From positions 1-60,138 of the forward strand of contig NZ_NCII01000004.1 of NCBI RefSeq assembly GCF_002256775.1: a stretch of 60,138 nucleotides of DNA. The letters are read 5' to 3'. The stretch's first letter is position 1. Each line of letters starts with the position of its first letter. The notes below the pieces were generated by a model. The model had not been told where the DNA came from, did not search any database, and saw nothing but the letters and a program-made list of their open reading frames with translations. Below, in pieces: positions 3,959 to 56,613 of the stretch. Origin of the DNA: Novosphingobium sp. 17-62-19. GTDB lineage: Bacteria > Pseudomonadota > Alphaproteobacteria > Sphingomonadales > Sphingomonadaceae. The translations under genes and the position numbers were made by a program.

Positions 3959-4081
3959 AGCTAAATCGGCCAATTCAGTGAAAAGTGACGATAGCATGAG
4001 TGCTTGGCGTCCACAACCGAGCGCGACCGCCTAGGTGAGCTTTTGATTCCACTGGTCTCAGTGAATCGATTTGAGTCCCTA

Positions 4082-4141: not shown

Positions 4142-4145
4142 CAAA

Positions 4146-4223
4146 TTTCAGAAATCGCAGGTCTGGTTGTTAACAAGCAACTTGATTGCACCAAATAAGG
4201 TGGGGGCTACGGCCCCCATTTTT
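4146..4223 (+). ncRNA. tracrRNA
   Basis: The trans-activating RNA that pairs with crRNA repeats and is bound by Cas9. The anti-repeat starts TTTCAGAAATCG and runs to about 4171; its complement matches the repeat-like sequence at 4082. Downstream come a short hairpin (CACC at 4190-4193 with GGTG at 4199-4202, alternative to part of the terminator stem) and a GC-rich terminator hairpin. Length and order (anti-repeat, small stem, terminator) are those of type II-C tracrRNAs. It is transcribed divergently from cas9. Confidence 0.8.
4201..4223 (+). terminator. Intrinsic terminator of the tracrRNA
   Basis: A seven-base-pair stem TGGGGGC / GCCCCCA around a tetraloop TACG is followed by ATTTTT. This is a textbook rho-independent terminator and doubles as the 3' stem-loop of the tracrRNA. 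The AT-rich stretch from here to 4432, before the transporter gene ends, holds nothing else that I can identify. Confidence 0.85.
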
Positions 4224-4432
4224 GCACTGATGCTGATCGCCGAAAATCATGAGAGTTCGCCTTGGTTCAGCCATGCTAATTATAAAAATTGAAAAATACC
4301 ATAATTATTATAAATGAACTATTTTTGACTTCCACCCGCTTTGCCAAAGATCCATTACCTGATTGGTCTTTTCTCGGCCTTGCCCTGCTGCCGTACAGGG
4401 CGAAGCCAATGAACTGCGGCAGGTTTCAGCTT

Positions 4433-7928: not shown

Positions 7929-8068
7929 ACGGTTTTCCTGTTGGCTTGAGGTGGGCCGGTGGCACAATTAATTCATGCCTGAGCTGAGATGTTTGCCTGC
8001 GATCGGGAAGTCAGTCACGATATCATGTCCTGTTTTCCCGTCGCACTGCCGGTGCGGCACCAAGATAG

Positions 8069-9562: not shown

Positions 9563-10552
9563 ATGGATCGGAAGAAGGCACTCTGGCTTGGTGTTGCAGG
9601 CTTCGCCGCCATCGGCGCGGGAGCCTATGCCTTTGGCGGCGGCGAACCGGACGAGAAGCGCAAGCCAGCAGCGATGGCGCGCCCGGCTTCTGCGGTGGCG
9701 GAGGGCGCAAAGATCGTGCCGCAACCTGCTGCGATGACCGCGGCAGGCCTTGATGCTTCGCGGCCCACCGATTGCCTGATCGAACCATCTGCCGTGGTGC
9801 GGGTGAACAGTGGGGTGGAAGGCGTGGTGCAGGCGGTGTTCGTTGATCGTGGCGACACCGTCACGCGCGGGCAGGTGGTGGCCCAATTGCGTGCCGATGT
9901 GGATCGCGCTGGGGCAGCAGCGGCGCAGGCGCGGGCGGGCAATGTCTTTGCCGAACGGGCGGCGGCCAGCCGTGCTGCCTATCTCGATTCCGTGCGTAAG
10001 CGCAGCGAGCAAATAGCGCAGTTCCTGGCCCGCGATGCGGTGGAAGAGGCGCAGGCCAATGCCCGTGCTGCGGGCGAAGAGCGGCGTGCGGCGGCGCAGA
10101 ACCAGCGTGTGGCCGCACTTGAATATGCGCAGAGCCAGCGCGTGCTTGCCGAAAAGACCGTGCGCAGCCCTGTTTCGGGCATCGTGACCGAAAGGGTGAT
10201 GTCTGCTGGTGAATATCGCGGGCCGGATGCGACGCATATCGTCACGGTGGCACAAGTCGATCCACTGCACGTGGAGGTATTTGCGCCGATTGCCCAACTC
10301 GATGCAATCAAACTGGGCGATACGGTGACGATCATTCCCGAAGATCCGGTGGGTGGTGAATACAATGCCGTGGTGAAGGTTGTGGACCGTGTATTCGATG
10401 CTGCCAGCGGCACCTTCGGTATGCGTCTTGAGCTGCCCAATCCCGGCAATGCGCTGCCTGCGGGTTTGCGCTGCACGATCCGCATCGGCGGAGCGCTGCC
10501 ACTTCCACGACCGTCGCGGCCACCGGTTCGCCGACCTTCCACAGCCAGCTGA
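9563..10552 (+). CDS. HlyD/RND-type periplasmic adaptor protein
   Basis: Inner-membrane-anchored periplasmic adaptor of 329 residues that bridges an inner-membrane component and a TolC-type channel. An N-terminal membrane anchor (ALWLGVAGFAAIGAGAYAF) is followed by half of a lipoyl/barrel-sandwich domain (VNSGVEGVVQAVFVDRGDTV), an alanine-rich coiled coil, the second lipoyl half (KTVRSPVSGIVTERVM) and a beta-barrel domain (PLHVEVFAPIAQLDAIKLGD). The ATG at 9563 has GGGGCAGGGA just before it, so I prefer it to upstream starts. It lies 41 bases before a TolC gene. No RND pump or ABC transporter gene accompanies it, which is unusual for an efflux adaptor and links it to the giant-protein block. 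Confidence 0.85.
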   Translation: MDRKKALWLGVAGFAAIGAGAYAFGGGEPDEKRKPAAMARPASAVAEGAKIVPQPAAMTAAGLDASRPTDCLIEPSAVVRVNSGVEGVVQAVFVDRGDTVTRGQVVAQLRADVDRAGAAAAQARAGNVFAERAAASRAAYLDSVRKRSEQIAQFLARDAVEEAQANARAAGEERRAAAQNQRVAALEYAQSQRVLAEKTVRSPVSGIVTERVMSAGEYRGPDATHIVTVAQVDPLHVEVFAPIAQLDAIKLGDTVTIIPEDPVGGEYNAVVKVVDRVFDAASGTFGMRLELPNPGNALPAGLRCTIRIGGALPLPRPSRPPVRRPSTAS

Positions 10553-10593
10553 GCCATCAATCGATCCACGCTACTAGCAGGAGCCTGTCGCCG

Positions 10594-12084
10594 ATGACCC
10601 GCAAGTTCGCGCTTCTCGCCTGTTCCGCAACGCTTTTGCTGACGGAATTCCCAGTCCAAGCTGAAACGTTGCAGGCGGCGTTGCAGGCCGCCTATGAAAA
10701 CAACCCCACGCTTGGTGCGCACCGCGCTGCGGTGCGCGCAGCGGATGAAGGGGTGCCTCAAGCGTTGGCAGCGGGGCGACCGACATTGGAAGGCAGCGCA
10801 ACCTATCAGGAGAACCTGCTGCGCGGCGTACCTGCTGGCGGCGGCTTCTTCTCCAACCCTCAGCGGCAGGTGGTGGGGCAAGTGAACCTTACTGTGCCGA
10901 TCATCACCTTTGGCGCGGTGCGCAACAGCGTGCGTGCCGCCCAGAGCCGGGTCGAGGCGAGCCGCATGGGTCTGCGTGGGACCGAGAGCGAGTTGTTCAC
11001 CAACGTCGTTGGTGCCTACATGGACGTGCTGCGCGACGAGGCGGTGGTGCAACTGAACGAGCGCAACACCGAAGTGATGCTCTTCACGCTTGGGGAAACG
11101 CGCGAACGCAATTCTGCTGGTAACCGTGGGCCGACCGACGTGGCGCAGGCTGAGGCGCGGCTGGCGCTGGCGCAAAGCCAATTGGAAACGGCCCGTGCGC
11201 AACTGGTGTCGAGCCGCGAGACCTATATCCGATTGGTGGGCCATCCGCCGGGACAGCTGGATGAGCCGGAAGTGCTGCCCAATCTGCCCGCAACGGTTGC
11301 AGGCGCAGTTTCCACCGCGCTGGCCAACAATCAGGAACTGCAGGCTGCGCGGGCAGAGGTGACGGCAGCAGGCTTTGATGCTGATGCAGCGCAGTCTGCG
11401 CGTCTGCCACGGATCAGCGGCGTGGGCAGCGTAAACCAGTACGACTATCTCGGCTCGCTGGCGCAGGGGACTGGGCCGAGGAACATGGACCAGGGTACCA
11501 CAGCCTTTGTGGGGATGCGGCTGGACGTGCCGCTGTTCGATGGTGGGCGACAAGCGTCGCAAGTAAGGCAAGCCCGGGCAAGGCAGGAACAGACCGGAGA
11601 GCAGGTGATTGCTGCCGAGCGTGCAGTGGTGGCGCAGGCGCGTTCTGCCTATGCCACTTGGCAAGCGGCGAGCAAGGTGACCGAGACCGCGCGGCGTGGC
11701 GTGGATGCCAATCTGCGGGTGCTCACTGGCTTGCGTGCAGAGACGGCGGCAGGGTTCCGACCGCTGCTGGACAGGCTGAACGCCGAGCAAGAATTGCTGA
11801 ACGCGCAGGTGACTTTGGTGACAGCGCGGCGCGATGCCTATGTGGCGGGCTTTGCGCTCTTGGCATCAATGGGGCTGGCCGAGGCCCGCAACCTGAACTT
11901 CGACAGTGGTGTGCTCTATGATCCGGTGGTCAATTACGAGGACGTGAAGGGGCTGCTGCTGAACTGGAACCCCGACCCTGTACGGCCGACGCAAAGCACA
12001 TCGACGGCAGAGACGCCGCCGCAGGATGCAATCGTGGCACCACCCTCTGTCTCGCCGGTTCCACAGATCAATCAAGGGCAATGA
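10594..12084 (+). CDS. TolC-family outer membrane protein
   Basis: Outer-membrane channel of 496 residues. It has a classic signal peptide (KFALLACSATLLLTEFPVQA followed by ETLQAAL), the N-terminal ENNPTLGAHRAAVRAADEGV repeat half, paired coiled-coil segments and the second half beginning TALANNQELQAARAEV. The mid-protein VPLFDGGRQASQVRQARARQ is a TolC hallmark. AGGAG lies about ten bases before the ATG. The C-terminal ~45 residues are proline/threonine-rich and probably periplasmic. It most resembles TolC proteins of type I secretion and is the candidate outer-membrane exit for the giant protein. Confidence 0.9.
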   Translation: MTRKFALLACSATLLLTEFPVQAETLQAALQAAYENNPTLGAHRAAVRAADEGVPQALAAGRPTLEGSATYQENLLRGVPAGGGFFSNPQRQVVGQVNLTVPIITFGAVRNSVRAAQSRVEASRMGLRGTESELFTNVVGAYMDVLRDEAVVQLNERNTEVMLFTLGETRERNSAGNRGPTDVAQAEARLALAQSQLETARAQLVSSRETYIRLVGHPPGQLDEPEVLPNLPATVAGAVSTALANNQELQAARAEVTAAGFDADAAQSARLPRISGVGSVNQYDYLGSLAQGTGPRNMDQGTTAFVGMRLDVPLFDGGRQASQVRQARARQEQTGEQVIAAERAVVAQARSAYATWQAASKVTETARRGVDANLRVLTGLRAETAAGFRPLLDRLNAEQELLNAQVTLVTARRDAYVAGFALLASMGLAEARNLNFDSGVLYDPVVNYEDVKGLLLNWNPDPVRPTQSTSTAETPPQDAIVAPPSVSPVPQINQGQ

Positions 12085-12137
12085 TGAATTTAGCCAGCTA
12101 TTCTGGCGCATTTACCTTAGAGGAACCGCAGAAAGCG

Positions 12138-12155
12138 CCCTGTTTTCGGACAGGG
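12138..12155. other. Hairpin between tolC and the sigma factor gene
   Basis: CCCTGT and ACAGGG pair around a six-base loop 54 bases after the tolC stop. No T-run follows, so it is at best a weak terminator or a processing/pausing site separating adaptor-tolC expression from the downstream block. The promoter of the sigma gene probably lies between here and 12242, but I cannot point to clear boxes. Confidence 0.35.
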
Positions 12156-12242
12156 TATGATAAAGAAAGCGGCAATCCGTTAACTAATATTGCTAGAAGC
12201 TTGTCTGTTTGGCATCCTGACCAGCATGGCCGGGAGTGGCGA

Positions 12243-12782
12243 GTGGACTACGCGAGATTGGCGAGCGACTGGCGCGAGGGTGATCGCGAGGCGGGCAATG
12301 TGCTCTTTTCGGCGCTTTCGTCCGAATTGCGCGCAATTGCCGCCGCTCGGCTGCGGCAAGAACGCAATTGCTCGCTCTCGATTGGAGACCTCGTCAATGA
12401 GGCGATGGTCAAGCTATTCCGTCTCAATCTCATCGAATTTCGCAGCCGTGCGCACATTCTTGCGCTGACATCACGGCTGATGCGGCAAATATTGGTGGAC
12501 GAGGCTCGCAAGCGCAATGCAGCGCGGCACAACCATGAATCGGTAACGCTCAACACCAATGTCGCCGAATGGGAGATGCCTGTAGATCTGATGACGATCG
12601 ACATGCTGCTGAAGGATCTGCACCTGATTGATCCCGAACGCTCGCAAATCGTTGAAATGCGGTTCTTTGGCGGCATGTCGTCCGAAGATATTGCCGAAGT
12701 ACTGGGTCTTTCAGAGGCGACCGTGAAGCGCCGCTGGGCCGCCACGCGCGCTTGGCTGCGTCACCGATTGCGACATCCGTAA
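12243..12782 (+). CDS. ECF sigma factor of the Sig-70_X6/ECF-like group
   Basis: An RNA polymerase sigma factor of 179 residues with region 2 (LFSALSSELRAIAAARLRQE through LVNEAMVKLFRL and LTSRLMRQILVDEARKRNA) and region 4 (LHLIDPERSQIVEMRFFGG, then helix-turn-helix MSSEDIAEVLGLSEATVKRRW). I chose the GTG at 12243, which has GGGAG six bases before it and gives the family's usual length; an ATG at 12081 overlapping the tolC stop would add 54 residues without family similarity. Members of this group are usually found next to serine/threonine kinases. Here the next genes are a 62-residue protein and the giant surface protein, so it is the likely transcriptional switch for them. Confidence 0.85.
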   Translation: MDYARLASDWREGDREAGNVLFSALSSELRAIAAARLRQERNCSLSIGDLVNEAMVKLFRLNLIEFRSRAHILALTSRLMRQILVDEARKRNAARHNHESVTLNTNVAEWEMPVDLMTIDMLLKDLHLIDPERSQIVEMRFFGGMSSEDIAEVLGLSEATVKRRWAATRAWLRHRLRHP

Positions 12783-12792
12783 GGGGCGCAGC

Positions 12793-12981
12793 ATGACGGG
12801 AGGCGACGGCATCCATCATGCAGAGCGCCGCGCCATGGCGCTTCTGGAAGAGGCGATGGATCAGCCGTTGGACGAACGCAGGGACTGGCTGGAAAATTGT
12901 TCCGAAGCCGACGATCAAGTGCGTGCGCTGGCGCTGGCAATGCTGCTTTCCGACGAATCGAGCGACGGATCGCTGCGCTGA
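12793..12981 (+). CDS. Small protein resembling the N-terminal helical segment of sigma-linked Ser/Thr kinases
   Basis: A 62-residue acidic helical protein starting ten bases after the sigma factor stop. MALLEEAMDQPLDERRDWLENC and DQVRALALAMLLSDE follow the pattern of the short N-terminal region of serine/threonine kinases that are encoded beside sigma factors of this group. The kinase domain itself is missing, and I see no continuation in another frame, so it is either an eroded remnant or a free-standing regulator of the sigma factor. The similarity is by eye and moderate. Confidence 0.55.
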   Translation: MTGGDGIHHAERRAMALLEEAMDQPLDERRDWLENCSEADDQVRALALAMLLSDESSDGSLR

Positions 12982-13188
12982 GCGGAAGCGGCGATTGGCG
13001 CCCCGGGATTTTCACGGCCTCAGCGACAAATTCGTGATCCCGTACAACCCGTTTTGACGCCTTCCATTATGGGGGCAGATTGCATGTGCGGTAGCCCCGA
13101 AAATGGGGGGCTGGATGGGTCTTCGCGAAGCTTTGGCAAGCAACCGGGCTGCGGTCTGGCGGTTAACCTTTTGTAGCGGAGGTCGCCT
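12982..13188 (+). promoter_or_regulatory. Leader of the giant gene with several short hairpins
   Basis: Non-coding stretch of 207 bases. AGCCCC (13093-13098) pairs with GGGGCT (13107-13112), CTTCGCGAAG (13121-13130) is self-complementary, AACCG and CGGTT flank 13141-13165, and a GGTTAACC palindrome precedes the ribosome site. A strong CGGAGG lies about seven bases before the GTG start of the giant gene. The hairpins suggest a structured 5' leader, but no known riboswitch fits. No clear promoter boxes can be named. Confidence 0.4.
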
Positions 13189-13374
13189 GTGAACCAGCGC
13201 AGGCTTGGCGATCTTCGCGGGCGATTGGCCCGCCTTGCCACAATCGAACCGATCACCGGGCGTTTCAAGGACTGGCAGCGGGCACGGCTCCGCACATCCA
13301 CGACGCTGGCGAGCACGCTTGCCAACCGGCTCTCGCTGGAAACGCTTGAACCTCGGCTGCTCCTTTCCGCCGAC
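13189..13374 (+). other. N-terminal LEPR-XLL segment of the giant protein
   Basis: Residues 1-62. Thirteen arginines and one lysine with few acids precede the motif LEPRLLLSAD, after which the beta modules start at once. There is no hydrophobic core for Sec signal peptidase or twin-arginine motif. In known proteins the motif is confined to the N-terminus of giant exported proteins, which makes it a candidate export or recognition signal; its role is not established. Confidence 0.8.
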
Positions 13375-16300
13375 ACACCACCCATCGAAGGGCGGATCGA
13401 TGTGGCGGGTGAGACCGACCAGTTCATCGTCAAGATCAGCACGCCTTCGCAGTATGTATTTGATTCGTTGACTGATTCGTCGGCGATCAGCTGGAATCTG
13501 GCCGATCCGTCCGGGCAGGTCATCGCCAACCGCGCGTTTGGCGCATCTGATGCGCGCGATTTTACGGGTGCGCCGGTGCTGGACCTTGCCATCGGCGAGT
13601 ACACGCTGAGCATTGATGGGTCAGCTGACGCCACCGGCAACTATGCGTTCCGACTGCTCGATCTGGCCGATGCGACACCGCTGACGCTGGGAGAGCGCAT
13701 TGCCGCCAACAATCCCGGCAAGCAGACCGACCTGTACAGTTTCGACGTGACGGCGGGGCAAAGTTTCTATTTTGATGCGCAGAGCCTGACCGGCGGGGAT
13801 GCCTCGTGGCGCTTGCTCGGACCGGATGGCGAGCAAGTGCGTCCGCCTGCCAATATCAGTGATTCCGGTGTGTTCTCGCTCAGCCGTACGGGCAAATACA
13901 CGCTTTCGCTCGAAGCGCGTGATAGCAATGCAACGGCCATCGCTTACGCCTTCACGCTTTCACGCGTGACGCATGAAACCGCCCCACTGTTGTTGGGAAC
14001 GACCGAGGTGGGCGAGATTGACCTTGCCGGCAATACCGACAGCTACGAATTCACGCTTGCTGCCGACTCTCGGGTGCTGTTCGATACACTGCAGAACAGT
14101 GGTCTGCGCTGGACTCTGACGGGGCCGCGCGGTGTGGTGGTGAGTAACCGGTCGCTGGCCTCATCGGATACCAACGGCGGCGATCCCGTGCTGGACCTGG
14201 TGGCGGGAAGCTATCGTCTGACGATTGCGGGTGACACCAACAGCGATGGAAAAGGCCGCTATGCCTTCCGCTTGCTTGATGCCACAAGTGCTTTGCCGAC
14301 CACCTATGGAGCCGCTTTTTCGGCTGCGATTGGCAATGGAAATACGATCGCAGAGCGCGAACGTGCTGCGGGGGCGCCGATCGGTGGAAGTGCTGCTGGC
14401 AACCGCAGTTGGACCGTTGATCGCCTCAATGACCTGACCGTCGCCGATACTGCAGCGCTCAGGTCTGAGCAGATTACGGTTGAGGCGTGGTTGCTGGGTG
14501 ACGGCGGCGACTTCTATGAAGGCGCGGTTACCAAGATCAGCGATTCCAGTTGGAACGATGGCTATGGACTGGTGCGTACCGGCGAGACGGTGCGGTTCTT
14601 CGTCAATTCGTGGTCGGGGTCGTTTGTTGAATACGCGGTAGATGGCGACGAATGGCACCATGTTGCCGGGACATATGACGGCGCGGCTCTAAAACTCTAT
14701 GTGGATGGCCAGCTGGTGGCCGAAAGCGCGTTTGCCGAAGCAATTCGCCATACCAACAATGCGCTTTCCATCGGCGGCGCTCCGGCGAGCGACTACCGCT
14801 GGAACGGATCGATCGACGAAGCGCGCGTGTGGAACCTGGCGCGCTCAGCCGAGCAGATTGCTGCGACATGGCAGGTACCGCTGAGCGGGAATGAGACCGG
14901 GCTGATCGGCTATTGGCCGTTCGATGAAGAAAATGGGCCGCTTGCTGCCGATCTCTCGCCCACAGCGGCGATGGCCACTCTGCGCAGCGCACCTGCTACT
15001 GAGACACGCCTTTACAGCTTTGCCGCAAGCAAAGGCGAGCGCGTGTTTTTCGACGTGCTGAGTTATACCGGCGCAAGTCTCCATATTCGTGTGCTTGATC
15101 CCGCGGGGCGGCAGATTCGCACTTCTACCGGGCTGATTGACCTCGATCTTTCCGATCTGCCGATGGATGGCACCTATACACTGGCAATTGAGGGTTATCT
15201 TTACAACGAGCTGGGTGCGCAGTTCAGCGCGGTGCTGCACAAGGCCAGTCGTAGCGAGGCTACGCTGGTGCCCGGCGTGACGGTTACCGGGACCGTAGCC
15301 GCGTTGCAGACTCAGGCGTACAGCTTCACCTTGGCCGATGCGAAGCAACTGGTGTTCGATACGCTGAGCGGGGCGGCAGACATCACGTGGACCCTGCGCG
15401 GCCCACGCGGGATCGAGGTTTCTGCGCGCACTTTCCGCAATTCGGACAGCGCTGATCTGGCAGGCTCAGGGCTGCTCGATTTGCCCGAAGGTGATTATGT
15501 GATCGAAGTGGCGGGGCAAGGCGCGGCAAGTGGCGCGTTTTCGTTCCGCCTGCTCGACATTGCGGCGGCCACTCCGCTGACGATTGGTGTCGGCACGTCG
15601 TTCGCATTTGATCCTGCCAACAGTAGCAGGACGTTCCGTTTTTCAGCCGCCGCTGGCGATCAGTTGCAAGTTGTGCGCAGCGATGGCCTTGCGCATGACG
15701 CCTACGTTCGCGTGATCGATCCGACCGGGCGGCAAGTCTATGGCCCGGCCTATTTCGGCTCCGACAATGTGTTCACAGCCGCGATGGCCGGTGAATACAC
15801 GGTGCTTGTCGAATCCCGATATTACATCACATCGAGCGAAACCTACGGCTTCAGCGTGGACCGGTTGGGCAATACGCCGCCTGCCAACACGTCAACCGGC
15901 ACACCGCTTGTGCTGGGCAGCACGGTGAACGACACGCTTAGTGCGGCGGGTGAAACCGACCTGTTCACTTTCACCACCGCAGGACCGGTGCGAGTGCTGA
16001 TGGATTCACTGACGCTCGACGCGTCCAAGACCTGGACGCTGGTCGGCCCGCGTGGCGTGGAGACAGGGCCTTGGAATCTCCGGGATTCCGATAGCTATGA
16101 TCGAAGCGGCAATACTGTGATCGATCTGCCGCTGGCAGGCAGTTACCAGTTGCGCATAACCGGTTCGGCCGGTGCCTATGGTTTCCGCCTGCTCGATATT
16201 GCAGCAGCTACGCCGATCACCCCGGGACCGACGACCGTAAGCGGTGTGCTGACACCGGGACGGTCCACTGCAATGTACCGGTTCAGTGGGACGGCGGGCG

Positions 16301-19300
16301 AGACGATCGTGCTTGATGCGGTGACCGGCTTTGACGGCTCGATCCGCTTGATCGACAGGTTCGGTCGACTGGCATTCGAGCCGCAGAGTTTCAACGATCG
16401 CAATTTTGTTCTGCCCACGACGGGTGAATATACCCTGCTGCTAGAAGGGCGCATCTACAACGGCGCAGCGAGCGACGATTTCGCCTTTGTCCTGAACCGC
16501 CCGGTCGATCCTGCACCGATCAACCTTGCCTTCGGAACGAGCTACAGTGGCACGATTGCGGCGGCGGGCGATTTGCAGCGGTTCCGCTTCAGTCTGGCCA
16601 CAGCGCGATTGGTGGCGTTTGATTCCCTTGCCAACACACCCGGTCTCAGCTGGACACTGAACGGTCCGGGTGACGCGGTGACGCGCAATTTCACCAATTC
16701 CGACAGCTATGAATCCGGCACGTTCCCGCCGGTCCTGCTTGAAGCGGGAGAATACGAACTGGTCGTGGGCGGCGGTTTCGGCTCTGGTGCCTATGGCTTT
16801 CGAATGCTTGATCTTGCGGCTTCGGCGCAATTCGTGGCTGGCAATGGTGAACTGGTGCAGGGCACACCCTCGCTGCCCAATGGTACACAGGTTTTTGCAT
16901 TTGCGGCGACAGCGGGTGAACGCTTTGCTTTCCAGAACATCCAGCAGTCGAGCCGGACCAGCCTGCGCCTTATTGACCCTGCCGGACGCGATCTTTCAGG
17001 TGCCAGCTTCAGCAGCGGCTCGTTCACTGCTGAATTGAGCGGCACGTACTATGTTCTGATGGAAGGGCAGGTGTTCTTTGCCGGGCCAGCCACGCCCTAT
17101 CAATTCCGTCTGCATCGCCCTTTGAACCCGCCAGCTGGCAGTTTGAACCTGAACGCGCTGACCACCGTCAATATTGCGCAGCCTACGCAAGTCGTGACGC
17201 TCAATTTCTCTCTGGCCGAGCCGAAGCGCGTCTATCTCGACTCCTTTACGAACAACAATCAGATCAGCTGGGAACTGACCGCGATCACCGGTCGGGTGGC
17301 GGGTGCTGCCTTCAGCAACAGTGATGCGTTCGAGAACACCAGCGATCGGGCCATCGATCTGCCTGCGGGAGACTACAGCTTTACCGTCAGCGCCAGCGGG
17401 CTGAACACCGGCGAAGTGCAATTCCGCCTTCTCGATCTGGCAACAGCAGTGCCAATCGTCAAAGGACAGCCGGTTGCAGGCACCAATGATCCAGCAGCGG
17501 AAACCGATGCCTACAGCTTTACGGCCGAGGCGGGGGACCGATTGTACCTGCAGTTCCTGCAAAACAGTGGCCAGCACGGCTATCGCCTGATCGGCCCGGA
17601 CGGAAAACAACTGTTCGGCCCTGCCGGCCTTGGTGACCGTGAGTTCACCGTCAGCCGAAACGGCACGTACACCCTGCTGGTTGAAGGGCGCGTCTATGAC
17701 ACCACGCCGCGCCCTTACAGCTTTGTGCTGCATGATGCTGAAAGCCCGGTGGCGGCGATAAATATCACGGGTGCAAATGGCGGTTATGCGCTGACCCCAG
17801 GCCGGATCAGCAACGCGTTGCGGATGACGGGGCACGAGGAACTGCGCATAGCCGACCCCGCGCTCGATATCCGCGATGATGTGACCGTGGAGTTCTGGAT
17901 CAACCCGGATGCCATGGCAGATTCGTGGACGCCGCTGGTCTACAAGGGGGTAAACGGCCAGCGCACCTATTCAGTCTGGCTGAATTCCAGCGGCTACATC
18001 TACTTTGGTAGCGCGCGGGGTGGTGCCGAGGATGCGCTCCAGACGGCCAGTGGATCGATCAAATTCGGGCAATGGAACCATGTGGCGGCGGTGCTGAGCC
18101 GTTCCACCGGGCAAATGCAGATCCTGATCAACGGAGAAGTTGCGGCCACACGGACAGTATCCTCCACACCTGCCAGCGGTAGCCCGGATACGCCGCTTTA
18201 TATTGGCAGCACAGACGAATGGAGCGAAAGCTACCGGCGTTTCGACGGTGCGCTGGATGAACTTCGAGTGTGGGACGGTGCGCGCAGTCAGGCCGACATA
18301 CAGGCCGAAATGCTGCGGGGGGCGCCATCGAACACCGCAGGCCTGTTGATGCGCCTGCCCTTCGACAACCTTGCGGGCGGAGCGACGCGCGAAACGGTGT
18401 CCAACGCATCGGTGCCGGTGATCTGGAGCCTTGCTGGCCTTGCAGGCGTTGTTGAGGGCCGGATCGGCACTCCTGGCGAACAGCGCGTGTATACCTTCAC
18501 GCTGGCGCAGGACACCATGCTGGCGTTCGATTCCTTGCAGGATAACAGCCAGTTGAACGTGCGCATTGACGGGCCGGGCGGGCTGTCTGTCACACGCAAC
18601 ATGCGCAATGGCGATTCTGACGAATTTGGCGGCGCAAACCCGCTGTTCCGTGCACCTGCAGGGCAATATACGATCACCGTGGACGCCAATGGTGCAAACA
18701 CGGGCAGCTTTGCCTTCCGTTTGCTTGACCTTGCCGGGGCCACGCCCATTTCCACCGACTCTGTGGTTTCTGGCACGATTTCCGGTTCGGGCGAAAACAG
18801 GGCGTTCAAATTTGACGTGGCGGCGGGGGAATCATTGTTCCTCGATGCGCAGTCCATCAGCGCTCAGCAAGCCCGCGCAACATTTCGTCTGATCGACCCG
18901 CTGGGACGGCAAGTCTTCGGGCCGACAGATTTCGTCGACCGCGAACTGGGGCGGATGGCGGTGGGCGGCACTTATACCCTGCTGGTCGAAGGAAGGGTCT
19001 GGCGCAACTGGCCGGTCGATTATCGCTTTGCCGTGCAGACCGTGGCCGACCAGCCTGCCATCCCGATCACTCTGGGCGGGACAAATCCCGCACAACCAAC
19101 GGTGGTGCCCGGCCAAACCGGCAACGCACTCGCGCTGCGCGGTGTGGACTTTGTGGAAGTGCCCGACGGCCCAGCCACATCGCCTGCACGCAACATGACT
19201 CTGGAAGGCTGGTTCAAGCTCGACCGCTTTGCCAACACATGGACGTCGCTTGCGGTGAAGGGTGCGGATCGGACGGCGACGGCCGCCTATCTGCTATCGG

Positions 19301-46300: not shown

Positions 46301-49300
46301 TCCTGTCCTCGCTCCAGCAAGGCTTCGCCGTTCCCGCAGGGGCAGACAGCATCACCTTGCGCATCGCTTCAGCCAGTCTCGGCAGCAATGCCGCGCTGCC
46401 GCCCGATGCCTTCGAAATCGCGCTGCTTGATCCGGTCACCGGCGCTTCGTTGCTCGGCGCGATGGGCGGACTTTCGCTCAGCGATGCCTTGCTCAACCTT
46501 CAGGCCGATGGCTCGCTCTACCTCGCACCCGGAGTGACTGTGCAGGGCAATCCGCTCACCGGCGCGGCCATCGTCACGATCTCCCTCGCAGGCGTCGATA
46601 CCAGCAACGGCGCATGGCTCAGCTTCGACCTGATCGGGCAGGGCGCGCTCGACAGCCTTGTGACGGTTGATGATGTCGGCTTCGGCGGCGCAATCAACAG
46701 CCCGCCCGTGGCGCGCGATGATGATGCTGTGGTGGCCGAGGACGGCGAAGTAGCCATCGACCTCCTGTCCAACGATAGCGATGTCGATGGCGACCCGCTG
46801 GCGGTCACCATCCTCACCGCGCCCGCCAACGGCACTCTGCGTGCGCCCACCACACCGGGCGACGCATGGACCTATGTGCCCGATGCCAACTTCAGCGGCA
46901 CCGACAGCTTCACCTATCAGATCAGCGACAACATCAACCCGCCCGCCACGGCCACCGCGCGCATCACGGTGAGCGCCGTCAACGATACGCCGGAAATCAC
47001 TCCGGTAGCCAACCGCAGCGCCACCGTGGGCGAGGCGATTGCTCTGGCGATTGCGGCCAGCGATATCGAGGACGCGGCGCAGGATCTCGTCTTCACCCTG
47101 CTCGAAGGCCCGCAGGGATTGACGCTGTCCCCACAAGGCCAGTTGCAGTGGACAGCGGCGGGCAGCGGCCAGCAAACCGTGCGTCTGCGCGTAACCGACA
47201 GCGGCGGGGCGAGCGCCGAAACCAGCTTCGTCATCGCCGTCACCCCGGCCAACAATGAAGCCCCGCAGATCGCAGCCGTTGCCGCGCAACAGGTGGATGA
47301 AGGCGCAAGCCTCAGCTTCGCCCTTTCCGCCACCGATGCCGATCACGCGGCAGGCGATCTCGTCTACAGCCTCGTCACCGGTCCCGCCGGTGCCACCGTC
47401 TCGCCCGCAGGCCAGTTCAACTGGATCGCCACCGATCAGGCCGCGCAGCAGCCGGTCACCGTGCGCGTCACCGATCCGGCAGGCGCATTCACCGAAACCA
47501 GCTTCGTGATCAACGTGGCGCTGGCGCCGGACAATCTGGCTCCGGTGCCCAATGCCGTCGCCAATCGCACAGTGACGGCAGGCGGCGTGCTGATCGTCCC
47601 GCTTTCCGCCACCGACGATCTCGACGCGCCGAACGATCTGGTCTGGTCGCTGGTCTCCGGCCCGCAAGGATCGGCCGTCTCGCCCACTGGCCAGTTCAGC
47701 TGGCTGGCGAGCGAAGCGCTCGGCCCACAGGACGTGGTCGTGCGCGTAACCGACAGCGGCGGCCTCTTTGCGCAAACCAGCTTCACGGTTACCGTCGAAG
47801 CGCGCGCCAATCAGGCCCCCGCCATCGATCCGGTCAGCAACCGCGCAGTGCAACAGGGCACCGCTGTCAGCCTGCAATTGACCGCGACTGACCCCGATCA
47901 CGCCGCCAACACACTGGTCTTCGAACTCGTCTCCGGCCCGCTCGGAGCTGCCGTATCGACCGACGGCCAGTTCGTCTGGACCGCCGATCTGACCGGCGAT
48001 CAGGCGATCACCGTTCGCGTCACCGATCCTGCCGGAGCCTCGGCGGAAACCAGCTTCGTCATCGCGGTTGCTGCCGTGGGCAACGACGCCCCGCTGCTCG
48101 CCCCGATTGCGGCGCAGGCTGTCATCATTGGTGGCGATGTTACACTCGATCTGGTCGCCAGCGATCCCGACGACGACCTTTCCACCCTGATCTTCGCGCT
48201 GGAAAGCGGCCCGCAAGGCGCTGCGGTCACACCACAGGGCCGCTTCACGTGGACCAGCAACGTGCTTGGCACCGTGCCGGTTACCGTCTCGGTCATCGAT
48301 CCATCGGGCAACCGCGCGGAACGCAGCTTCGACATTACCGTGGGCGCCGTACCCAATATCGCGCCGGTCCTCGCGCCCTTGAACGACCAGACAGCCACCC
48401 AAGGCGATGATCTCGCCTTCCAACTTTCCGCCTTCGATGCCGACGATGCTTTGGCAACGCTGGTGTTCTCGCTGGTTTCTGGTCCACAAGGCGCACAAGT
48501 CACCCCCGACGGGCGGCTGACGTGGCAGGCGGCAACGCTGGGCGATGCGGACTTCACCATCCGCGTCACCGATCCTGACGGTGCGTTCGATGAGCGCAGC
48601 TTCAACATCACGGTGAGCGCGCGTCCCAACATCGCGCCGGTGATCGATCCGCAGCCGGTGGTTTCCGTGGCCGAGGGGCAGCAAGTCCTGCTCGATCTCA
48701 CCGCGACCGACGCCGATGGCCCGGCCGATGCGCTGGCGTGGGAACTGGTTTCCGGCCCTTCAGGCGCAGTGCTTACCCCGCAAGGCAGGCTGACATGGCT
48801 CGCCCCTGATGGCGCGGCGAGTGCCGAGTTTGCGGTCCGGGTCAGCGATGGCAAGGGCGGCATCACCACCGGCACGGTCACTGTCAATGTCACCGATGTC
48901 GCACCTGTCCTGACCGTGGTGGGCAGCGGCAGCGCCGGGGCAGGGCTGGTCTACCGCCTGCAACTCGCGCTGACCGATCCGGGGCAGGATACGCCGCAGG
49001 AATGGCGGATCGACTGGGGCGATGGCACCGTGGTCAGCAGCCTCGCCGGAACGGCATCGGCGGCAGAGCACGTCTTTGCAGGCGCGGGCCGCTTTACCGT
49101 GCGCGCCACTTTGCGTAACGAGGACGGGACTTTCACCGCGCAGCCGCTGGTGGTTGATGTCGCCGCAGCGCCGCTCTTGCAAGTCACCGGCAGCGGAATC
49201 GTCGGTGGCAGGCTGGTCGTCCGCTTCTCGCAAGCGCTGGCGGCCTTGCCGCTGACCGGCACTCCGGTCACGCTGGTCGGCTCGGCGGTCGGCGCTGTCA

Positions 49301-50538: not shown

Positions 50539-52415
50539 TGGCCGAGGTTCACGCCGAGATGCTCGACGCGGATGAGGCCCGCACCGCCGCGCCCCAAGAG
50601 GCCGCGCTTTGGGCGGCGCTGGCGATGGCCAAGGACGGCGCAGGCTTCTGCCGCGCCTGGCTCGATCTGCAATGCGCCCGCACGCCGGAGGCCAGCGGCG
50701 GGTTGATCCTGCTGGAAGCGCAGGGCGGCGGCTTTGCGCCTGCTGCGGTCTGGCCTGCCGGGCCGAGCAATATCGACCCGCTGCGCGAGGCGGCAGAAGC
50801 GGTGCTGGCGAGTGGTCAGCCGCAGATCGCGCCGGGTGGGGAGGGGCAGACCGTCATCGCCTATCCCGTTGGATCTTCGGCAGAAGTTCACGGTGTGATC
50901 GTGCTGGCGCTCGCCTCTGCCGATGCGGGCACCTTGCAGCAGACATTGCGCGAACTGCACTGGGGCGTGGGCTGGATACTGACGCTGGTATGGCAGCATC
51001 GCGCGGCCGAGGCGGGGCAGGCAAGCGCCGCGCCTCCGCCCGCAGCGGTCGCGGCGATGGAATTGCTGGCGGCGGTGCAGGAGCATGAGGGGCTGGAGGA
51101 GACGCTGCTGGCCTTCGTCAACGAGATTGCCCGTGCGGTGGGGGCGGACCGGGCGGCGGTGGGGCTGGTGCGGCGCGATGCGGTGCGGCTCTCGGCGATG
51201 TCTCACGGCGCGTGGTTCCGGCGCAAGTCCGAACTGGCCGAGACAATCGAGGCCGCGATGGACGAAGCCTATGACCAGCTCGCGCGGATTGTGTTGCCGC
51301 AAGGCGATGCGGGCGACGATTGTGGCGCGGTGACGATCCAGCACGCGCGGCTGATTTCGACACTGGGCAGCGGGGCCATCGCCTCGATCCCGTTCGAGGA
51401 CCGGGGTATCGTGACTGGCGTGCTGACGCTGGAGCGCGACCGGGGCCGCGCACCGTTCAGCGCGCGGGACTTGTTGCTGTGCGAGACGGCCGCTGCGCTG
51501 GTTGCGCCGACGATCTCGCTGAAGCAGCGCGAGGCGCGGCTGGTGAGCGGGCGCATCCGGGACAAGGCGATGCATGGCGCGCGCGCCGTGTTCGGTCCGC
51601 GCCGTCCGCTGGCCAAGGCACTGGCGATTGGTGCGGTGGTGCTGACCTTCGTGCTTCTGGTGCCGCTGGCGCAGTTCCGGGTGGGGGCCGATGCGACGCT
51701 CGAGGGCCGGGTGCAGCGCGCTGCCGCCGCACCGTTCAACGGCTTCATCGCGCGGTCGATGGCGCGGGCGGGCGATGTGGTGCAGGCGGGGCAAGTGCTG
51801 GCGGTGCTTGACGACCGCGACTTGCGGCTGGACCGGGCGCGGGCGGCGGCCGAACTGCAGCAGGTGGACCGGCAGTACCGCAAGGCGCTGGCGGGGCACG
51901 AGCGGGCCGAGATGAACCTGCTGGGCGCGCAATACCGCCAGGCCGAGGCCGAACTGCGGCTGATCGATTACAAGCTGGAACGCATCGCCATCACGGCGCC
52001 CTTGAGCGGTGTGCTGGTATCTGGCGATGTCAGCCAGTTGGTCGGATCGCCGGTGGAAGAAGGCAAAGTCCTGTTCGAAGTGGCCCCCGCGGACGACTTC
52101 CGCGTGGTGCTGAACGTGGCCGAGGGCGACATTTCGCACGTGAAGCCGGGGCAGGAGGGCCAATTCGCGCCGACCGGCTTGGCCGGGGAAACCGTGCCAT
52201 TCACCGTGACCAAGCTGACCAGCGTGACTGCCGCGCGTGACGGGCAGAACACGTTCCGGGTGGAGGCTGAACTTGCGCCCGAAGCGCGCGAATTGCTGCG
52301 GCCCGGGATGGAAGGCGTGGCCAAGGTCGATGTGGACCGGCGCAGTCTGGCCGGCATCTTGCTGCGCTCGGTGATCGGCTGGATGCGGCTGTTTGCATGG
52401 GAGTGGCTACCGTAA
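50538..52415 (+). CDS. Membrane adaptor: two GAF-like domains fused to a HlyD adaptor
   Basis: A 625-residue protein whose ATG overlaps the giant gene's stop (TGATG), with AGGAGG before it. The first ~360 residues are cytoplasmic and hold two GAF-like domains: GAGFCRAWLDLQCARTPEAS to ILTLVWQHRAAE, and LEETLLAFVNEIARAVGADR to LCETAAALVAPTI. A transmembrane helix follows (ALAIGAVVLTFVLLVPLAQF, ~362-381). The periplasmic half is HlyD-like: a lipoyl half with AAPFNGFIARSMARAGDVVQ, a short coiled coil, the second half with ITAPLSGVLVSGDVSQLVG and a beta-barrel with FRVVLNVAEGDISHVKPGQ. Adaptors of type I systems normally have only a short cytoplasmic tail, so the sensory domains are unusual. Direct coupling to the giant gene makes a role in its export likely. 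Confidence 0.85.
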   Translation: MAEVHAEMLDADEARTAAPQEAALWAALAMAKDGAGFCRAWLDLQCARTPEASGGLILLEAQGGGFAPAAVWPAGPSNIDPLREAAEAVLASGQPQIAPGGEGQTVIAYPVGSSAEVHGVIVLALASADAGTLQQTLRELHWGVGWILTLVWQHRAAEAGQASAAPPPAAVAAMELLAAVQEHEGLEETLLAFVNEIARAVGADRAAVGLVRRDAVRLSAMSHGAWFRRKSELAETIEAAMDEAYDQLARIVLPQGDAGDDCGAVTIQHARLISTLGSGAIASIPFEDRGIVTGVLTLERDRGRAPFSARDLLLCETAAALVAPTISLKQREARLVSGRIRDKAMHGARAVFGPRRPLAKALAIGAVVLTFVLLVPLAQFRVGADATLEGRVQRAAAAPFNGFIARSMARAGDVVQAGQVLAVLDDRDLRLDRARAAAELQQVDRQYRKALAGHERAEMNLLGAQYRQAEAELRLIDYKLERIAITAPLSGVLVSGDVSQLVGSPVEEGKVLFEVAPADDFRVVLNVAEGDISHVKPGQEGQFAPTGLAGETVPFTVTKLTSVTAARDGQNTFRVEAELAPEARELLRPGMEGVAKVDVDRRSLAGILLRSVIGWMRLFAWEWLP

Positions 52416-54593
52416 ATGGCCAACCCGTTCGAGAGCGCCAGCTGGTTCAACGTCGCGCATCTGCGGCCCAAGCTGCGCGCGCACGTGCGGGTGCGGCGGC
52501 ATGTCTATCGCGGAGCGATGTGGTACGTGCTCGATGATGGTGCGGCGGGGCGCGTGCATCGGTTTGCGCGCGGGGCCTATCTGCTGATCGGGCGGCTGGA
52601 CGGCGCGCAGACCGTCGATGCTTTGTGGCAACGGCTGGTGGACGAGATGGGCGAGGATGCGCCGACGCAGGACGAAGTGATCCGCGCGCTGGGGCAGTTG
52701 CACAACTCCGATCTGCTGGCGAGCGACGCCGCGCCCGATACGGCGGACCTGTTCAAGCGGCAGAAGAAGCAGCGGCGGCAGATCTGGTTGCAGAACCTGA
52801 AAAGCCCGATGTCCCTGCGCGTGCCGCTGGTGGATCCCGACAGGTTCCTGACCCGCACGATGCCGTGGGTGCAGCCGCTGTTCGGCTGGGCGGGGCTTGC
52901 GCTGTGGCTCACGCTGGTGGTGCCCGCGCTGGTGCTGGCGGGGCGGCATTGGGACGAATTGACCGGCAACCTGTGGGACCGCGCACTGTCGGCGGACAAC
53001 CTGTTCATCATGGCTTTTGTCTATCCGCTGGTCAAAGTGATCCACGAACTGGGGCACGGCTTTGCCGCCAAGGCGCGCGGGCGCGAAGTGCGCGAGATGG
53101 GGGTGATGCTGCTGGTGCTGTTCCCGGTGCCCTATGTCGATGCCTCTGCCGCCAGCGCCCTGCCGAACAAGTGGCAGCGCGCGACGGTGGGTGCAGCGGG
53201 GATGATGGCAGAACTGGCGCTGGCGGCGCTGGCGATGTTCGCGTGGGTCATGGTGGAGCCGGGCACGTTGCGGGCGGTGCTGTTCAACGTGATGCTGGTG
53301 GCGGGCATTTCGACCGTGCTGGTCAATGGCAATCCGCTGCTGAAGTTCGACGGGTATTACATCCTTGCCGATCTGATCGAGATTCCGAACCTTGCCGAGC
53401 GATCCAACCGGTTCTGGGGGCATCTGGCAACACGGCATCTGCTGGGCGCTTCGGACGAGCAGCCTTTTGCCGCCACGCCGGGGGAGAAGCGCTGGTTCAT
53501 CGCCTATGCGCCTGCGGCTTTTGCTGCGCGCATGGTGATGATGCTGGGCATTGCGCTGCTGGTGGCCAAGCGGTTCTTCTTCATCGGTGTGGCTATTGCG
53601 CTGTGGTCGCTGTGGAATGCCATCGGCGCGCCGCTGTGGAAGATGTATTCGCATGTTTTCACCAGCCCGCAACTGCACAAGAACCGCCAGCGCGCGGTGC
53701 GGCTGACGGTGGGAGTGACAGCGGCGGTGCTGGTGCTGCTGTTCGCCGTGCCCGCCCCGCATCACGCCACCACGCAGGGGATCGTCTGGCTGCCCGAGGA
53801 AGCGCATGTGCGTGCAGGCGGCGATGGCACGGTGAACGAGATCATGGCGGCGGAAGGCGCGCGGGTTGAACCGGGCGAACTGCTGGTCGGTGCGGAGAAT
53901 CCAATCCTTGCCGCCGAGGTGGAGCAACTGCGCTGGCGGGCGCATGAATTACAGGCACAGGCCGATGCCGAACTGCGCACCGGGGCCGGGCGGGCCGAGG
54001 CCGGGGACCGCGTGCAGCGCGAGGTCAGCCAGTTGCAACTGGCCGAGGCGGTGGAGCGGCTGACCACGCAGGAGCGGCGGTTGGGTGATCTGACGATCGA
54101 GGCTGAAAGCACCGGGACTTTCGTGCTGGCCGCTGCTCCTGCGGGCGACATGCCGGGGCGCTATATGAAGAAGGGTGAGCTGATCGGCTATGTGACGCCG
54201 GGCCATGCCGATGTGGCGCGGATTGCGGTGGCGCAGGACGATTTCGAGCTGATCCGGGGGCATTTGCGGTCGCTGCGGTTGAAGCTGGCCAACCGGCCAG
54301 GCGATACCTGGGACAGCGAGATCGTGCGTGCCGTGCCGGGCGGAACGTTCGAATTGCCGAGTCCGGCCTTGGGTTCGGCCAATGGCGGTCCGTTTGCGCT
54401 CGATCCGCGCAGCGAGGATGGCACGGGCACATTGGCGCGGGTGTTCCTGTTCGACGTGGCGCTGCCGCCGGACTTGCGCGAGGTGCCTTTCGGGACGCGC
54501 GTCCACGTGCGCTTTGCGCTCGATTGGGAGCCGCTGGGCTGGCAGGGCGTGCGGCGCATCCGGCAATTGCTGTTGGCGCAGTTCGATGCGTGA
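52416..54593 (+). CDS. PqqD-like/site-2 protease (M50)/HlyD fusion membrane protein
   Basis: A 725-residue protein starting directly after the preceding stop. Residues ~15-105 follow the PqqD/RRE winged-helix pattern (WYVLDDGAAGRVHRFARGAY, LIGRLDGAQTVDALWQRLVD, VIRALGQLHNSDLL). A multi-spanning M50 domain comes next, with HELGHGFAAK (H210, E211, H214) and NPLLKFDGYY (N306, D312) as the zinc and active-site motifs. It is closest to the putative peptide zinc metalloproteases found beside peptide exporters. After residue ~450 a HlyD-like periplasmic part follows, with EEAHVRAGGDGTVNEIMAAE, a coiled coil and ESTGTFVLAAAPAG. It may bind the exported protein through the PqqD part, cleave or guide it in the membrane and hand it to the adaptor ring; that role is inferred. 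Confidence 0.85.
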   Translation: MANPFESASWFNVAHLRPKLRAHVRVRRHVYRGAMWYVLDDGAAGRVHRFARGAYLLIGRLDGAQTVDALWQRLVDEMGEDAPTQDEVIRALGQLHNSDLLASDAAPDTADLFKRQKKQRRQIWLQNLKSPMSLRVPLVDPDRFLTRTMPWVQPLFGWAGLALWLTLVVPALVLAGRHWDELTGNLWDRALSADNLFIMAFVYPLVKVIHELGHGFAAKARGREVREMGVMLLVLFPVPYVDASAASALPNKWQRATVGAAGMMAELALAALAMFAWVMVEPGTLRAVLFNVMLVAGISTVLVNGNPLLKFDGYYILADLIEIPNLAERSNRFWGHLATRHLLGASDEQPFAATPGEKRWFIAYAPAAFAARMVMMLGIALLVAKRFFFIGVAIALWSLWNAIGAPLWKMYSHVFTSPQLHKNRQRAVRLTVGVTAAVLVLLFAVPAPHHATTQGIVWLPEEAHVRAGGDGTVNEIMAAEGARVEPGELLVGAENPILAAEVEQLRWRAHELQAQADAELRTGAGRAEAGDRVQREVSQLQLAEAVERLTTQERRLGDLTIEAESTGTFVLAAAPAGDMPGRYMKKGELIGYVTPGHADVARIAVAQDDFELIRGHLRSLRLKLANRPGDTWDSEIVRAVPGGTFELPSPALGSANGGPFALDPRSEDGTGTLARVFLFDVALPPDLREVPFGTRVHVRFALDWEPLGWQGVRRIRQLLLAQFDA

Positions 54594-56613
54594 CATGGCA
54601 GCTCTGAAAGCGCGTGCGGGCGATGTGTGGTACGAGATCCGCAAAGCCGAACGTCCGGTGATCGCACCCTATCCTGAGCTGGGGCAGGCCAAGGCGTGGA
54701 AGTGGGACCGCCCGCTGGACAAGCTGATCGGGCGGCTGATGGTCGATCCGCCATTTGTGAAGGGCACGTTGCTCGGCCGCGCCACGGCGATTGCGGAGGG
54801 TTGGCCGGAGCTGGCGAAGATGGGGCAGGATGCCTTCATGCTGCGCTGCCGGTCCATGCGGGCACGGCTTTCGCGCGAGGGGCTGGTGCCAGCGCTGGTG
54901 GACGAGTGCTTCGCGCTGATCCGCGAGGCGACCGGGCGCGAACTGGGGATGCGGCACTATCCGGTGCAGTTGATGGGCGGCCTTGCCATGATTGAGGGCG
55001 GCATTGCCGAAATGGCGACGGGTGAGGGCAAGACCATCACCGCGCTGCTGCCTGCGATCACTGCCGCGCTGGCGGGCATTCAGGCGCATGTATTCACCGT
55101 CAACGACTACCTAGCCACGCGCGATCTGGCCAAGCTTTCGCCGGTCTATGCGCTGTTCGGGCTTTCGACCGGGCTGATCGTGGAAGGGGGGGAGCCGGAA
55201 GAGCGGCGCGCGGCCTATCGCGCCGATGTGGTCTATGGGACCAACAAGGAAATCGCATTCGATTACCTCAAGGACATGGCGGCGCTGACGAAGGGGCGCA
55301 GTTCGGTGCGGCGGCAGGTGCAGGCGCTATGTGGCCAGCGCGTTCCACCGCTGACCATGCGCGGGCTGCACTTTGCCATCGTGGACGAGGCGGATTCGAT
55401 CTTCATCGATGAGGCGCGGACGCCGCTGATCCTTTCGGCGGAGACGCCGGGGGATGACAACGGGCTTTACCTTGCCGGGCTGGAACTGGCCGGACGGCTG
55501 GAGGAGGGCCGCCACTACACGATCCGCGAAGAGCAGCGCGCGGTGGAACTGACCGAGCGGGGCAAGCGGGCGGTGGAGGACATGGCCGCCGGATTGCCGC
55601 ACCGCCAGTGGCGCATCCGGCAGGCGCGCGAACAGCTGGTGGTTCAGGCGATCAGCGCGCGCCGCCTGTTCCTGAAGGACCGCGATTACGTGGTGGTCGA
55701 AGGCGAAGTGCGGATCGTAGATGAATCGACCGGGCGCACGATGGCCGACCGGTCATGGGAAGGCGGGCTGCACCAGATGGTCGAGGCCAAGGAGCAGGTC
55801 GAGACGACCGGGCAGCGCACCACACTGGCGCGGATAACCTACCAGCGCTTCTTCCGCCGCTATCGCAGGTTGGCGGGGATGAGCGGGACGGTGCGCGAGG
55901 TGGCAGACGAATTGTGGGCCGATTTCGGACTGCGGGTGCGGCCAGTTCCGGCGAACCGGCCGACGCAGCGGGTGCATCGGGGCCATGCTCTGGTGCGCAC
56001 GCAAGCGGACAAGTGGGCGCTGGTGGCTGCCGAGGTGGAGCGGGTGCGGCGCGAGGAGGGCGAGCGGCCGATCCTTGTCGGAACGCGATCAGTGGCGGAT
56101 TCGGAAAGCGTGGCGGCCTGTCTTGCGGCGCGCGGGGTGCCGCATCGCGTGCTGAATGCGCGACAGGATAGCGAGGAGGCCGAGATCATCGCGGGGGCGG
56201 GTGAGGTTGGGGCGGTGACCGTTGCCACCAACATGGCAGGGCGCGGCACTGATATCGAACTGACGCAAAGCGCGCGGGCGGCAGGGGGGCTGCATGTGAT
56301 CCTGACGGCGTTTCATGAAACGGCGCGGATCGACCGCCAGCTTTACGGGCGTGCCGGACGGCAGGGCGATCCGGGCAGTTCGCAGGCGATCACCGCGCTG
56401 GATGATGAGCTTTACCGCCACTTCGCCACGCGCGCCGCAAAGACGCTGGCCTCGTCTGCGCGCGAGTTTCCGGTGCTGGATGGCCCTGCCGAGTGGCTGC
56501 GCAAGTGGGCGCAGCGCGCGGCGGAGCGACGCCATGCCGCCACGCGGCGGCAGACCGAGCTATCGGAGGAGCGGCTGAAGGAGAGCCTGGCCTTTGCGGG
56601 GAGAGATGGCTGA
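54586..56613 (+). CDS. Compact SecA paralogue (accessory preprotein translocase ATPase)
   Basis: A SecA-type motor of 675 residues (672 if the ATG at 54595 is used), overlapping the M50 gene by eight bases. Seen are HYPVQLMGGLAMIEGGIAEM, Walker A MATGEGKT (143-150), VNDYLATRD, DEAD-box DEADSIFIDEARTPLILS (from 267), DESTGRTMADRSWEGGLHQM, MSGTVREVADELW, VATNMAGRGTDIEL and RQLYGRAGRQGDPGSS. The chain ends about 70 residues after the last motif, while housekeeping SecA goes on for about 250 more, so most of the helical wing, part of the scaffold and the zinc-binding tail are missing. It is therefore not the housekeeping SecA. Being last in the giant-gene operon, it is the best candidate for the energy source of export. 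Confidence 0.9.
   Translation: MRDMAALKARAGDVWYEIRKAERPVIAPYPELGQAKAWKWDRPLDKLIGRLMVDPPFVKGTLLGRATAIAEGWPELAKMGQDAFMLRCRSMRARLSREGLVPALVDECFALIREATGRELGMRHYPVQLMGGLAMIEGGIAEMATGEGKTITALLPAITAALAGIQAHVFTVNDYLATRDLAKLSPVYALFGLSTGLIVEGGEPEERRAAYRADVVYGTNKEIAFDYLKDMAALTKGRSSVRRQVQALCGQRVPPLTMRGLHFAIVDEADSIFIDEARTPLILSAETPGDDNGLYLAGLELAGRLEEGRHYTIREEQRAVELTERGKRAVEDMAAGLPHRQWRIRQAREQLVVQAISARRLFLKDRDYVVVEGEVRIVDESTGRTMADRSWEGGLHQMVEAKEQVETTGQRTTLARITYQRFFRRYRRLAGMSGTVREVADELWADFGLRVRPVPANRPTQRVHRGHALVRTQADKWALVAAEVERVRREEGERPILVGTRSVADSESVAACLAARGVPHRVLNARQDSEEAEIIAGAGEVGAVTVATNMAGRGTDIELTQSARAAGGLHVILTAFHETARIDRQLYGRAGRQGDPGSSQAITALDDELYRHFATRAAKTLASSAREFPVLDGPAEWLRKWAQRAAERRHAATRRQTELSEERLKESLAFAGRDG

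Follow-up and report, generated by a model that had tools for sequence, protein, structure and literature searches.

Classical type I secretion cargo carries RTX repeats near a C-terminal signal. An in silico study by Kamneva, Poudel and Ward (2015; PMC4452313) described an export module composed of a short SecA without SecA_SW, an M50-HlyD protein with membrane helices, a GAF-HlyD protein, a further HlyD protein and sometimes an OEP protein, with no ATP-binding cassette (ABC) transporter, and assigned to the secondary SecA the role of an ATPase replacing the ABC protein and to the M50 protein that of a possible pore. The module was thought to spread by horizontal transfer, and META1p2399-2402 of Methylobacterium extorquens AM1 was listed as a GAF/M50/SecA/HlyD operon. 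The same strain encodes the 15,831-residue protein META1_2412, according to Vuilleumier 2009 (PMC2680597). Since their locus tags are ten apart, the gene and the operon probably lie close together; the consulted passages of PMC4452313 and PMC2680597 make no link between them. Here we analyse a window of 60,138 nt (the whole stretch of DNA studied) from Novosphingobium sp. 17-62-19, on a contig of a 3.8-Mb genome of 149 contigs, in which genes of this module surround a giant gene encoding a 12,449-residue LEPR-XLL protein. The earlier note on this DNA had proposed a new export system, a claim that we rejected, since the module and the roles of SecA and M50 were already published (PMC4452313). 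What is added over the 2015 work is that LEPR-XLL giants are pointed to as the likely cargo of the module. On the whole we read the locus as encoding an exporter dedicated to a giant cargo of its own, at a probability of about 0.66, in which the channel, the motor role and the cleavage are predictions from sequence.

The genes of the locus lie on the + strand in the order adaptor, TolC, extracytoplasmic function (ECF) sigma factor, 62-codon open reading frame (ORF), giant, GAF-HlyD, M50-HlyD and short SecA. The giant gene (13189..50538, +), identified by its LEPR-XLL motif and domains and predicted to encode the cargo, starts with GTG, with GGAGG just 5' of it. It meets the gene for the GAF-HlyD protein (50538..52415, +; GAF N-terminal, hydrophobic segment near residue 356, HlyD C-terminal) in TGATG, a 1-bp overlap. 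A 0-bp gap separates the latter from the gene for the PqqD-like/M50/HlyD membrane protein (52416..54593, +; Peptidase_M50, HExxH and DG motifs), which overlaps by 8 bp the gene for a 675-residue SecA paralogue (54586..56613, +; SecA_DEAD, SecA_PP_bind and P-loop_SecA). The tight coupling of the giant to three downstream genes claimed from the sequence alone was confirmed at every junction, and family matches were found for all five machine proteins named at the time, TolC and the adaptor scoring over their cut-offs. The RND/HlyD-type periplasmic adaptor (9563..10552, +) reached 99.1 bits against a cut-off of 94.9 for TIGR01730, with HlyD_D23 and HlyD_3 also matched; its frame is open from 9482, and a hydrophobic anchor follows directly past the 9563 start. 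The TolC-family outer-membrane channel (10594..12084, +) reached 250.5 bits against 225.15 for TIGR01844. Both lie upstream of the giant, as the earlier note had said, but not just upstream, because the sigma factor gene and the 62-codon ORF separate TolC from it.

The GAF-HlyD/M50/SecA set was present in all six close loci compared (the window, L003, L004, L005, G136 and G192). G136 is a single contig, 100% complete, and holds a 12,611-codon LEPR frame together with the entire cassette, including an adaptor counterpart upstream of the giant (66% identity) and a TolC relative (61%). Three of these loci (the window, G136 and G192) have TolC 5' of the giant. In a collection of named genomes, the window M50 protein matched three loci, from an alphaproteobacterial metagenome-assembled genome, Aurantiacibacter zhengii and an uncultured Sphingomonadaceae.

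The giant protein contains laminin-G, PPC, CARDB, He_PIG/putative-Ig, Big/Big_9 and cadherin-like domains, and not one of its 12,449 residues is a cysteine. After a basic stretch near its N-terminus comes the LEPR-XLL motif LSLETLEPRLLLSADT (13330..13377, +), a predicted N-terminal export signal, which scored 28.8 bits with NF012209 (curated cut-off 17) and is the sole match in this genome. The N-terminus is basic and weakly hydrophobic. No Sec-like hydrophobic core was found in the first 90 residues, where the best 15-residue Kyte-Doolittle mean was 0.49, versus 2.37 for the OmpA signal peptide on the same measure, and no RTX motif (GG.G.D) was found across all 12,449 residues; the absence of a Sec signal peptide and of RTX repeats noted earlier thus holds. 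Direct reading of the C-terminal tail (50356..50535, +) revealed a short hydrophobic stretch followed by basic residues, and similar tails end the giants of L003, L004, L005 and L026. A few hydrophobic stretches also occur inside the giant, the strongest near residue 9043. The position of the motif was checked in 32 of the 56 LEPR places of the survey described below, and it was N-terminal in all 32, preceded by at most 101 in-frame residues (median 50); the 25 residues preceding it were net positive in 30.

We surveyed 398 genomes from the phylum of the window, taken to be Pseudomonadota on the basis of named relatives, counting an M50 match at E <= 1e-20 and a close match at E <= 1e-100, with at most two M50 candidates scored per genome. 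LEPR proteins were found in 41 genomes, M50 matches in 90 (37 of them close) and DUF4347 proteins in 93. Any M50 match was present in 40 of the 41 LEPR genomes compared with 50 of the 357 without LEPR, and a close match in 32 of 41 compared with 5 of 357; these five carry DUF4347 instead. The M50 family also accompanied DUF4347 (74 of 93 genomes, versus 16 of the 305 without it). Among the 53 genomes with weaker M50 matches only, DUF4347 was found in 46, LEPR in 8, either in 48 and neither in 5. LEPR and close M50 occurred together in 14 family codes; within the window's own family (249 genomes), LEPR and close M50 (E below 1e-100) are confined to the same 3 genomes, with weaker M50 in 14 more. 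A listed M50 lay within 16 kb of 28 of the 56 LEPR places, the list comprising 53 M50 places with most weaker-class ones left out. The check proposed in the earlier note, co-occurrence of LEPR proteins with these families, came out positive for M50, and cassette SecA was found in 30 of the 41 LEPR genomes (G000 counted from a separate search). The six close loci and the link over 398 genomes go beyond chance and support a single conserved gene set that accompanies LEPR-XLL proteins; these giants are likely the cargo of the SecA/M50 module.

Gene content was further compared in stretches of class A, B and C, each of up to about 22 kb. A GAF-HlyD relative was found in 24/27 class A, 19/19 class B and 20/23 class C loci, and SecA in 26/27 class A loci (the miss, L114, being a contig end), 16/19 class B loci and 0/23 loci of the weaker class. 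Wherever M50 and SecA both cleared the score limits (39 loci), they were on the same strand. An adaptor-like gene was present in 19/27 class A stretches, TolC, detected with a profile built by iteration on the same loci, in 15/19 class B and 15/23 class C stretches, and ORFs of more than 1800 residues in 15/27, 8/19 and 7/23 stretches of class A, B and C, respectively.

The residue following LL in the signal was tabulated for 36 proteins (32 LEPR loci, L152, which is among the 56 places, and L135, L137 and L150), with the M50 class set by the genome or the adjacent gene. Of the 29 proteins from genomes or loci with close M50, 27 have S, one has N, one has A and none has D; in the weaker (sister) M50 class it was D in 7/7. 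The table includes G258 and G568, genomes with close M50 and no cassette SecA, which still have S; so does the signal LLFSAT of L115 (from the SecA-less G429), which was read outside the table count. The signal variant therefore tracks the M50 class and not SecA, which suggests, from this small table, that the M50/PqqD protein reads the signal. The sister class (L135, L137, L146, L150 and L152; 53 genomes) has GAF-HlyD, M50 mostly without PqqD, often TolC, and no second SecA. It adjoins DUF4347/LEPR proteins, in the signal of which LL or LF is followed by D.

The M50 residues H210, E211 and H214 (HExxH) and D312 were invariant in 41/41 aligned members, and the equivalent catalytic residues were invariant in 20/20 sister-class proteins, so the protease is probably active. 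Hydrophobic segments lie between about residues 154 and 445. The window protein itself gives a weak PqqD match (18.5 bits against a cut-off of 23.4; E 0.0026); at E <= 0.1 PqqD was found in 22 of the 41 aligned members, the window included (best 9.5e-9), and in 1 of 20 sister-class proteins. HlyD_D23 is likewise weak in the window protein (E 0.082), and HlyD_3 was found in 32/41 aligned members at E <= 0.1.

Residues 79-624 of the short SecA align to residues 36-558 of the SecA chain 7xha_A (413.5 bits), a solved structure in which we take the wing, scaffold and finger parts to come after the aligned region. A quick tree (77 rows; several long branches, inner order unsure) separated 44 cassette SecAs from 33 others (31 housekeeping and 2 Gram-positive plasmid proteins) with a branch support of 100. 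Counted over 80 genomes (G087 left out), cassette-type SecA was present in 35/38 close-M50 genomes versus 0/42 others, none of which has more than one SecA match. The G428 assembly has no housekeeping-level SecA match, so both its SecA matches are of the cassette kind. Alternatively, the short SecA might act with SecYEG, perhaps together with the housekeeping SecA, to move the giant to the periplasm, leaving HlyD and TolC to a second step. Judged by its sequence the protein is a genuine SecA: SecA_DEAD, P-loop_SecA and the preprotein-binding domain SecA_PP_bind are matched in 32/32 aligned cassette members (window included), and 79 of the 80 genomes have a housekeeping-level match; Gram-positive SecA2 proteins, moreover, work with SecY (PMC4452313). 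Yet none of the 14 families matched by the 32 aligned cassette SecAs is the wing/scaffold family PF07516 (SecA_SW), which the housekeeping SecA of this genome has; the two-helix finger with which SecA acts at SecY belongs to the wing/scaffold part. No SecY family was found among the scanned window genes, and the giant lacks the hydrophobic core of a Sec substrate. We consider such a Sec-dependent route improbable.

Still less probable is a role of SecA, GAF-HlyD and M50 in processing only, in which they would cut, modify or unfold the giant before it left through a type I ABC exporter encoded elsewhere. The M50 protein does resemble the daptide maturation HExxH protease NF041824 (151.4 bits, below the cut-off of 300), one PrtD-type exporter exceeds its cut-off elsewhere in the genome (G000:C5:44160-45809), and 35 of 39 cassette genomes match at least one of three type I ABC models. 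Against this, the giant has no RTX motif, and four of the 39 (G136, G295, G388 and the 80% complete G385) gave no PrtD, LssB or HlyB match at E 1e-100, 1e-130 and 1e-150 among the best 21-27 first-look candidates scored per genome. Because G136 is complete and holds the cassette, a cassette probably does not require a type I ABC exporter; dependence on a dedicated ABC exporter elsewhere, which the earlier note had named as evidence that would count against its machine, seemingly does not apply to G136 at these thresholds. At the locus itself the reported absence of an ABC transporter was upheld, with none among the scanned window genes and none of the eight ABC_membrane places in the genome (seven over cut-off) on this contig; by motif pattern only, ABC genes were seen in 0/27 class A, 0/19 class B and 2/23 class C neighbourhoods (L034 and L136). 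The genes could also be neighbours merely through shared regulation or co-transfer, without acting on the giant. Horizontal transfer has been proposed (PMC4452313), and we found copies of the module on plasmids; the LEPR-M50 link nevertheless spans the 14 family codes, and which signal variant occurs depends on the class of M50, which leaves mere proximity very improbable.

The plasmid of Pseudosulfitobacter sp. DSM 107133 encodes a giant, DUF3467, an adaptor, a 'PqqD family peptide modification chaperone' and a 'translocase', and that of Mesorhizobium ciceri R30 a giant, DUF3467, two adaptors, M50 and a 'DEAD/DEAH box helicase'. Both plasmids are complete and share the order giant, DUF3467, adaptor(s), M50 and SecA, and by eye their giants begin with the LEPR-like segments FEPRVLLSAD and LEPRLLLSAD, respectively. 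In these two plasmids (L191 and L193) the DUF3467 gene between giant and adaptor is small (L191 7559-7900, Pfam-checked; L193 9461-9766); it does not occur in the window.

Several observations weigh against reading the locus as an exporter with a dedicated cargo. The Fisher value of 8e-34 for close M50 in LEPR genomes overstates the independent evidence, because the surveyed genomes include kin within families and are not independent. No M50 match was found in 19 of the 93 DUF4347 genomes and in one LEPR genome (G455), and on the M50 list used for distances, 25 of the 56 LEPR places have no M50 on their contig and 3 have one more than 16 kb away, in fragmented assemblies. TolC was found in 0/27 class A stretches, most of which end short of the region upstream of the giant. 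A plasmid of Rhodobacteraceae bacterium M382 has an adaptor, M50 and SecA, and no giant is annotated in that stretch of the incomplete PLSDB gene table. Cassette SecA is absent from 11 of the 41 LEPR genomes and from three close-M50 genomes (G258, G429 and G568). AlphaFold models of SecA and M50 (four sequences each) were poor, with pLDDT (a model confidence score) of 42 and 39, so structure does not support a contact or channel, and a protein-conducting pore is not a known role of M50 proteases. The view that SecA is essential to all LEPR export was rejected on the basis of the 11 LEPR genomes without it. The machine energised by SecA that the earlier note had envisaged is accordingly kept in part: the parts make up a conserved cassette, and SecA is not universal among them, so it can energise the machine in one branch only.

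In the export machine that we favour, the LEPR-XLL segment at the N-terminus of the giant would be the export signal. The PqqD-like/M50 membrane protein would recognise this segment and probably cleave it, given that its catalytic residues are invariant. Through ATP hydrolysis the SecA core would feed in the unfolded chain, the HlyD domains of the M50 protein, the GAF-HlyD protein and the adaptor would bridge the periplasm to TolC, and the GAF domain may gate or sense. The SecA-less sister class would draw on a different source of energy. Far more tentatively, the two classes may be branches of one route apart from Sec and type I, in which a fusion of intramembrane M50 protease, PqqD-like reader and HlyD conduit takes LEPR-XLL-led megadalton proteins, cleaves the leader and passes them to TolC, one branch being driven by a SecA core shorn of the parts used with SecYEG and the sister branch, which has DUF4347 proteins and a leader that ends in L/F-D-A/G-A, by another driver; as judged from sequence comparison, this is possible and on balance doubtful.

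For bacterial proteins of at least 10,000 residues that lack RTX and Sec signals, the machine of 2015, described with no cargo, and the LEPR-XLL giants, for which no exporter was named, give each other a partner. This pairing of machine and cargo makes the export of such proteins testable by single-gene deletions in laboratory bacteria. If true, the oldest export motor would be put to a new use, as a SecA devoid of the part that contacts SecY and working beside a membrane protease, and the LEPR-XLL motif would serve to predict export. A literature search, which covered few subscription papers and preprints, revealed no printed link of giants or LEPR-XLL to this module; two of the papers covered contain the word LEPR-XLL, the words giant, LEPR, cadherin and adhesin are absent from the main text of PMC4452313, and SecA and TolC are not mentioned in passages from a paper on giant ORFs in Omnitrophota.

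The remaining genes of the locus are the ECF sigma factor gene (12081..12782, +), of the Sig-70_X6 kind (TIGR02999 above cut-off), with a 77% identical relative in G136, and the 62-codon ORF (12793..12981, +), known from its translation; the sigma factor is a possible regulator of the locus. At the start of the contig lie a type II Cas9 of 1060 residues (569-3751, -; TIGR01865, 562 bits) and a Cas1-like frame (73-555, -) that matches part of Cas_Cas1, with two weak pairs of repeats near cas9 within 1-4500. An FGE-sulfatase/DinB protein is encoded beside a histidine-specific methyltransferase (5689-7967, -; Pfam), presumably an ergothioneine pair. Neither a tRNA nor an Rfam family at gathering score was found in the window.

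In comparison with known systems, the locus resembles type I secretion (HlyB-HlyD-TolC) in its HlyD-type adaptors and TolC and in a very large, repetitive, adhesin-like cargo, and differs in that the window contig has no ABC transporter, the cargo has no RTX motif and the conserved signal is N-terminal. With the accessory Sec systems (SecA2, SecA2-SecY2) it shares a second SecA devoted to a special cargo; unlike them, it has no SecY2 among the scanned window genes, and its SecA lacks the wing/scaffold family and is partnered by HlyD and TolC proteins. The closest likeness is to the module of Kamneva 2015, whose SecA without SecA_SW, M50-HlyD protein, GAF-HlyD protein and lack of an ABC transporter are all found at the window locus. 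Whereas no cargo was named there, the present analysis offers a likely cargo with its predicted N-terminal signal, finds the protease site to be invariant and adds a sister class that has no SecA.

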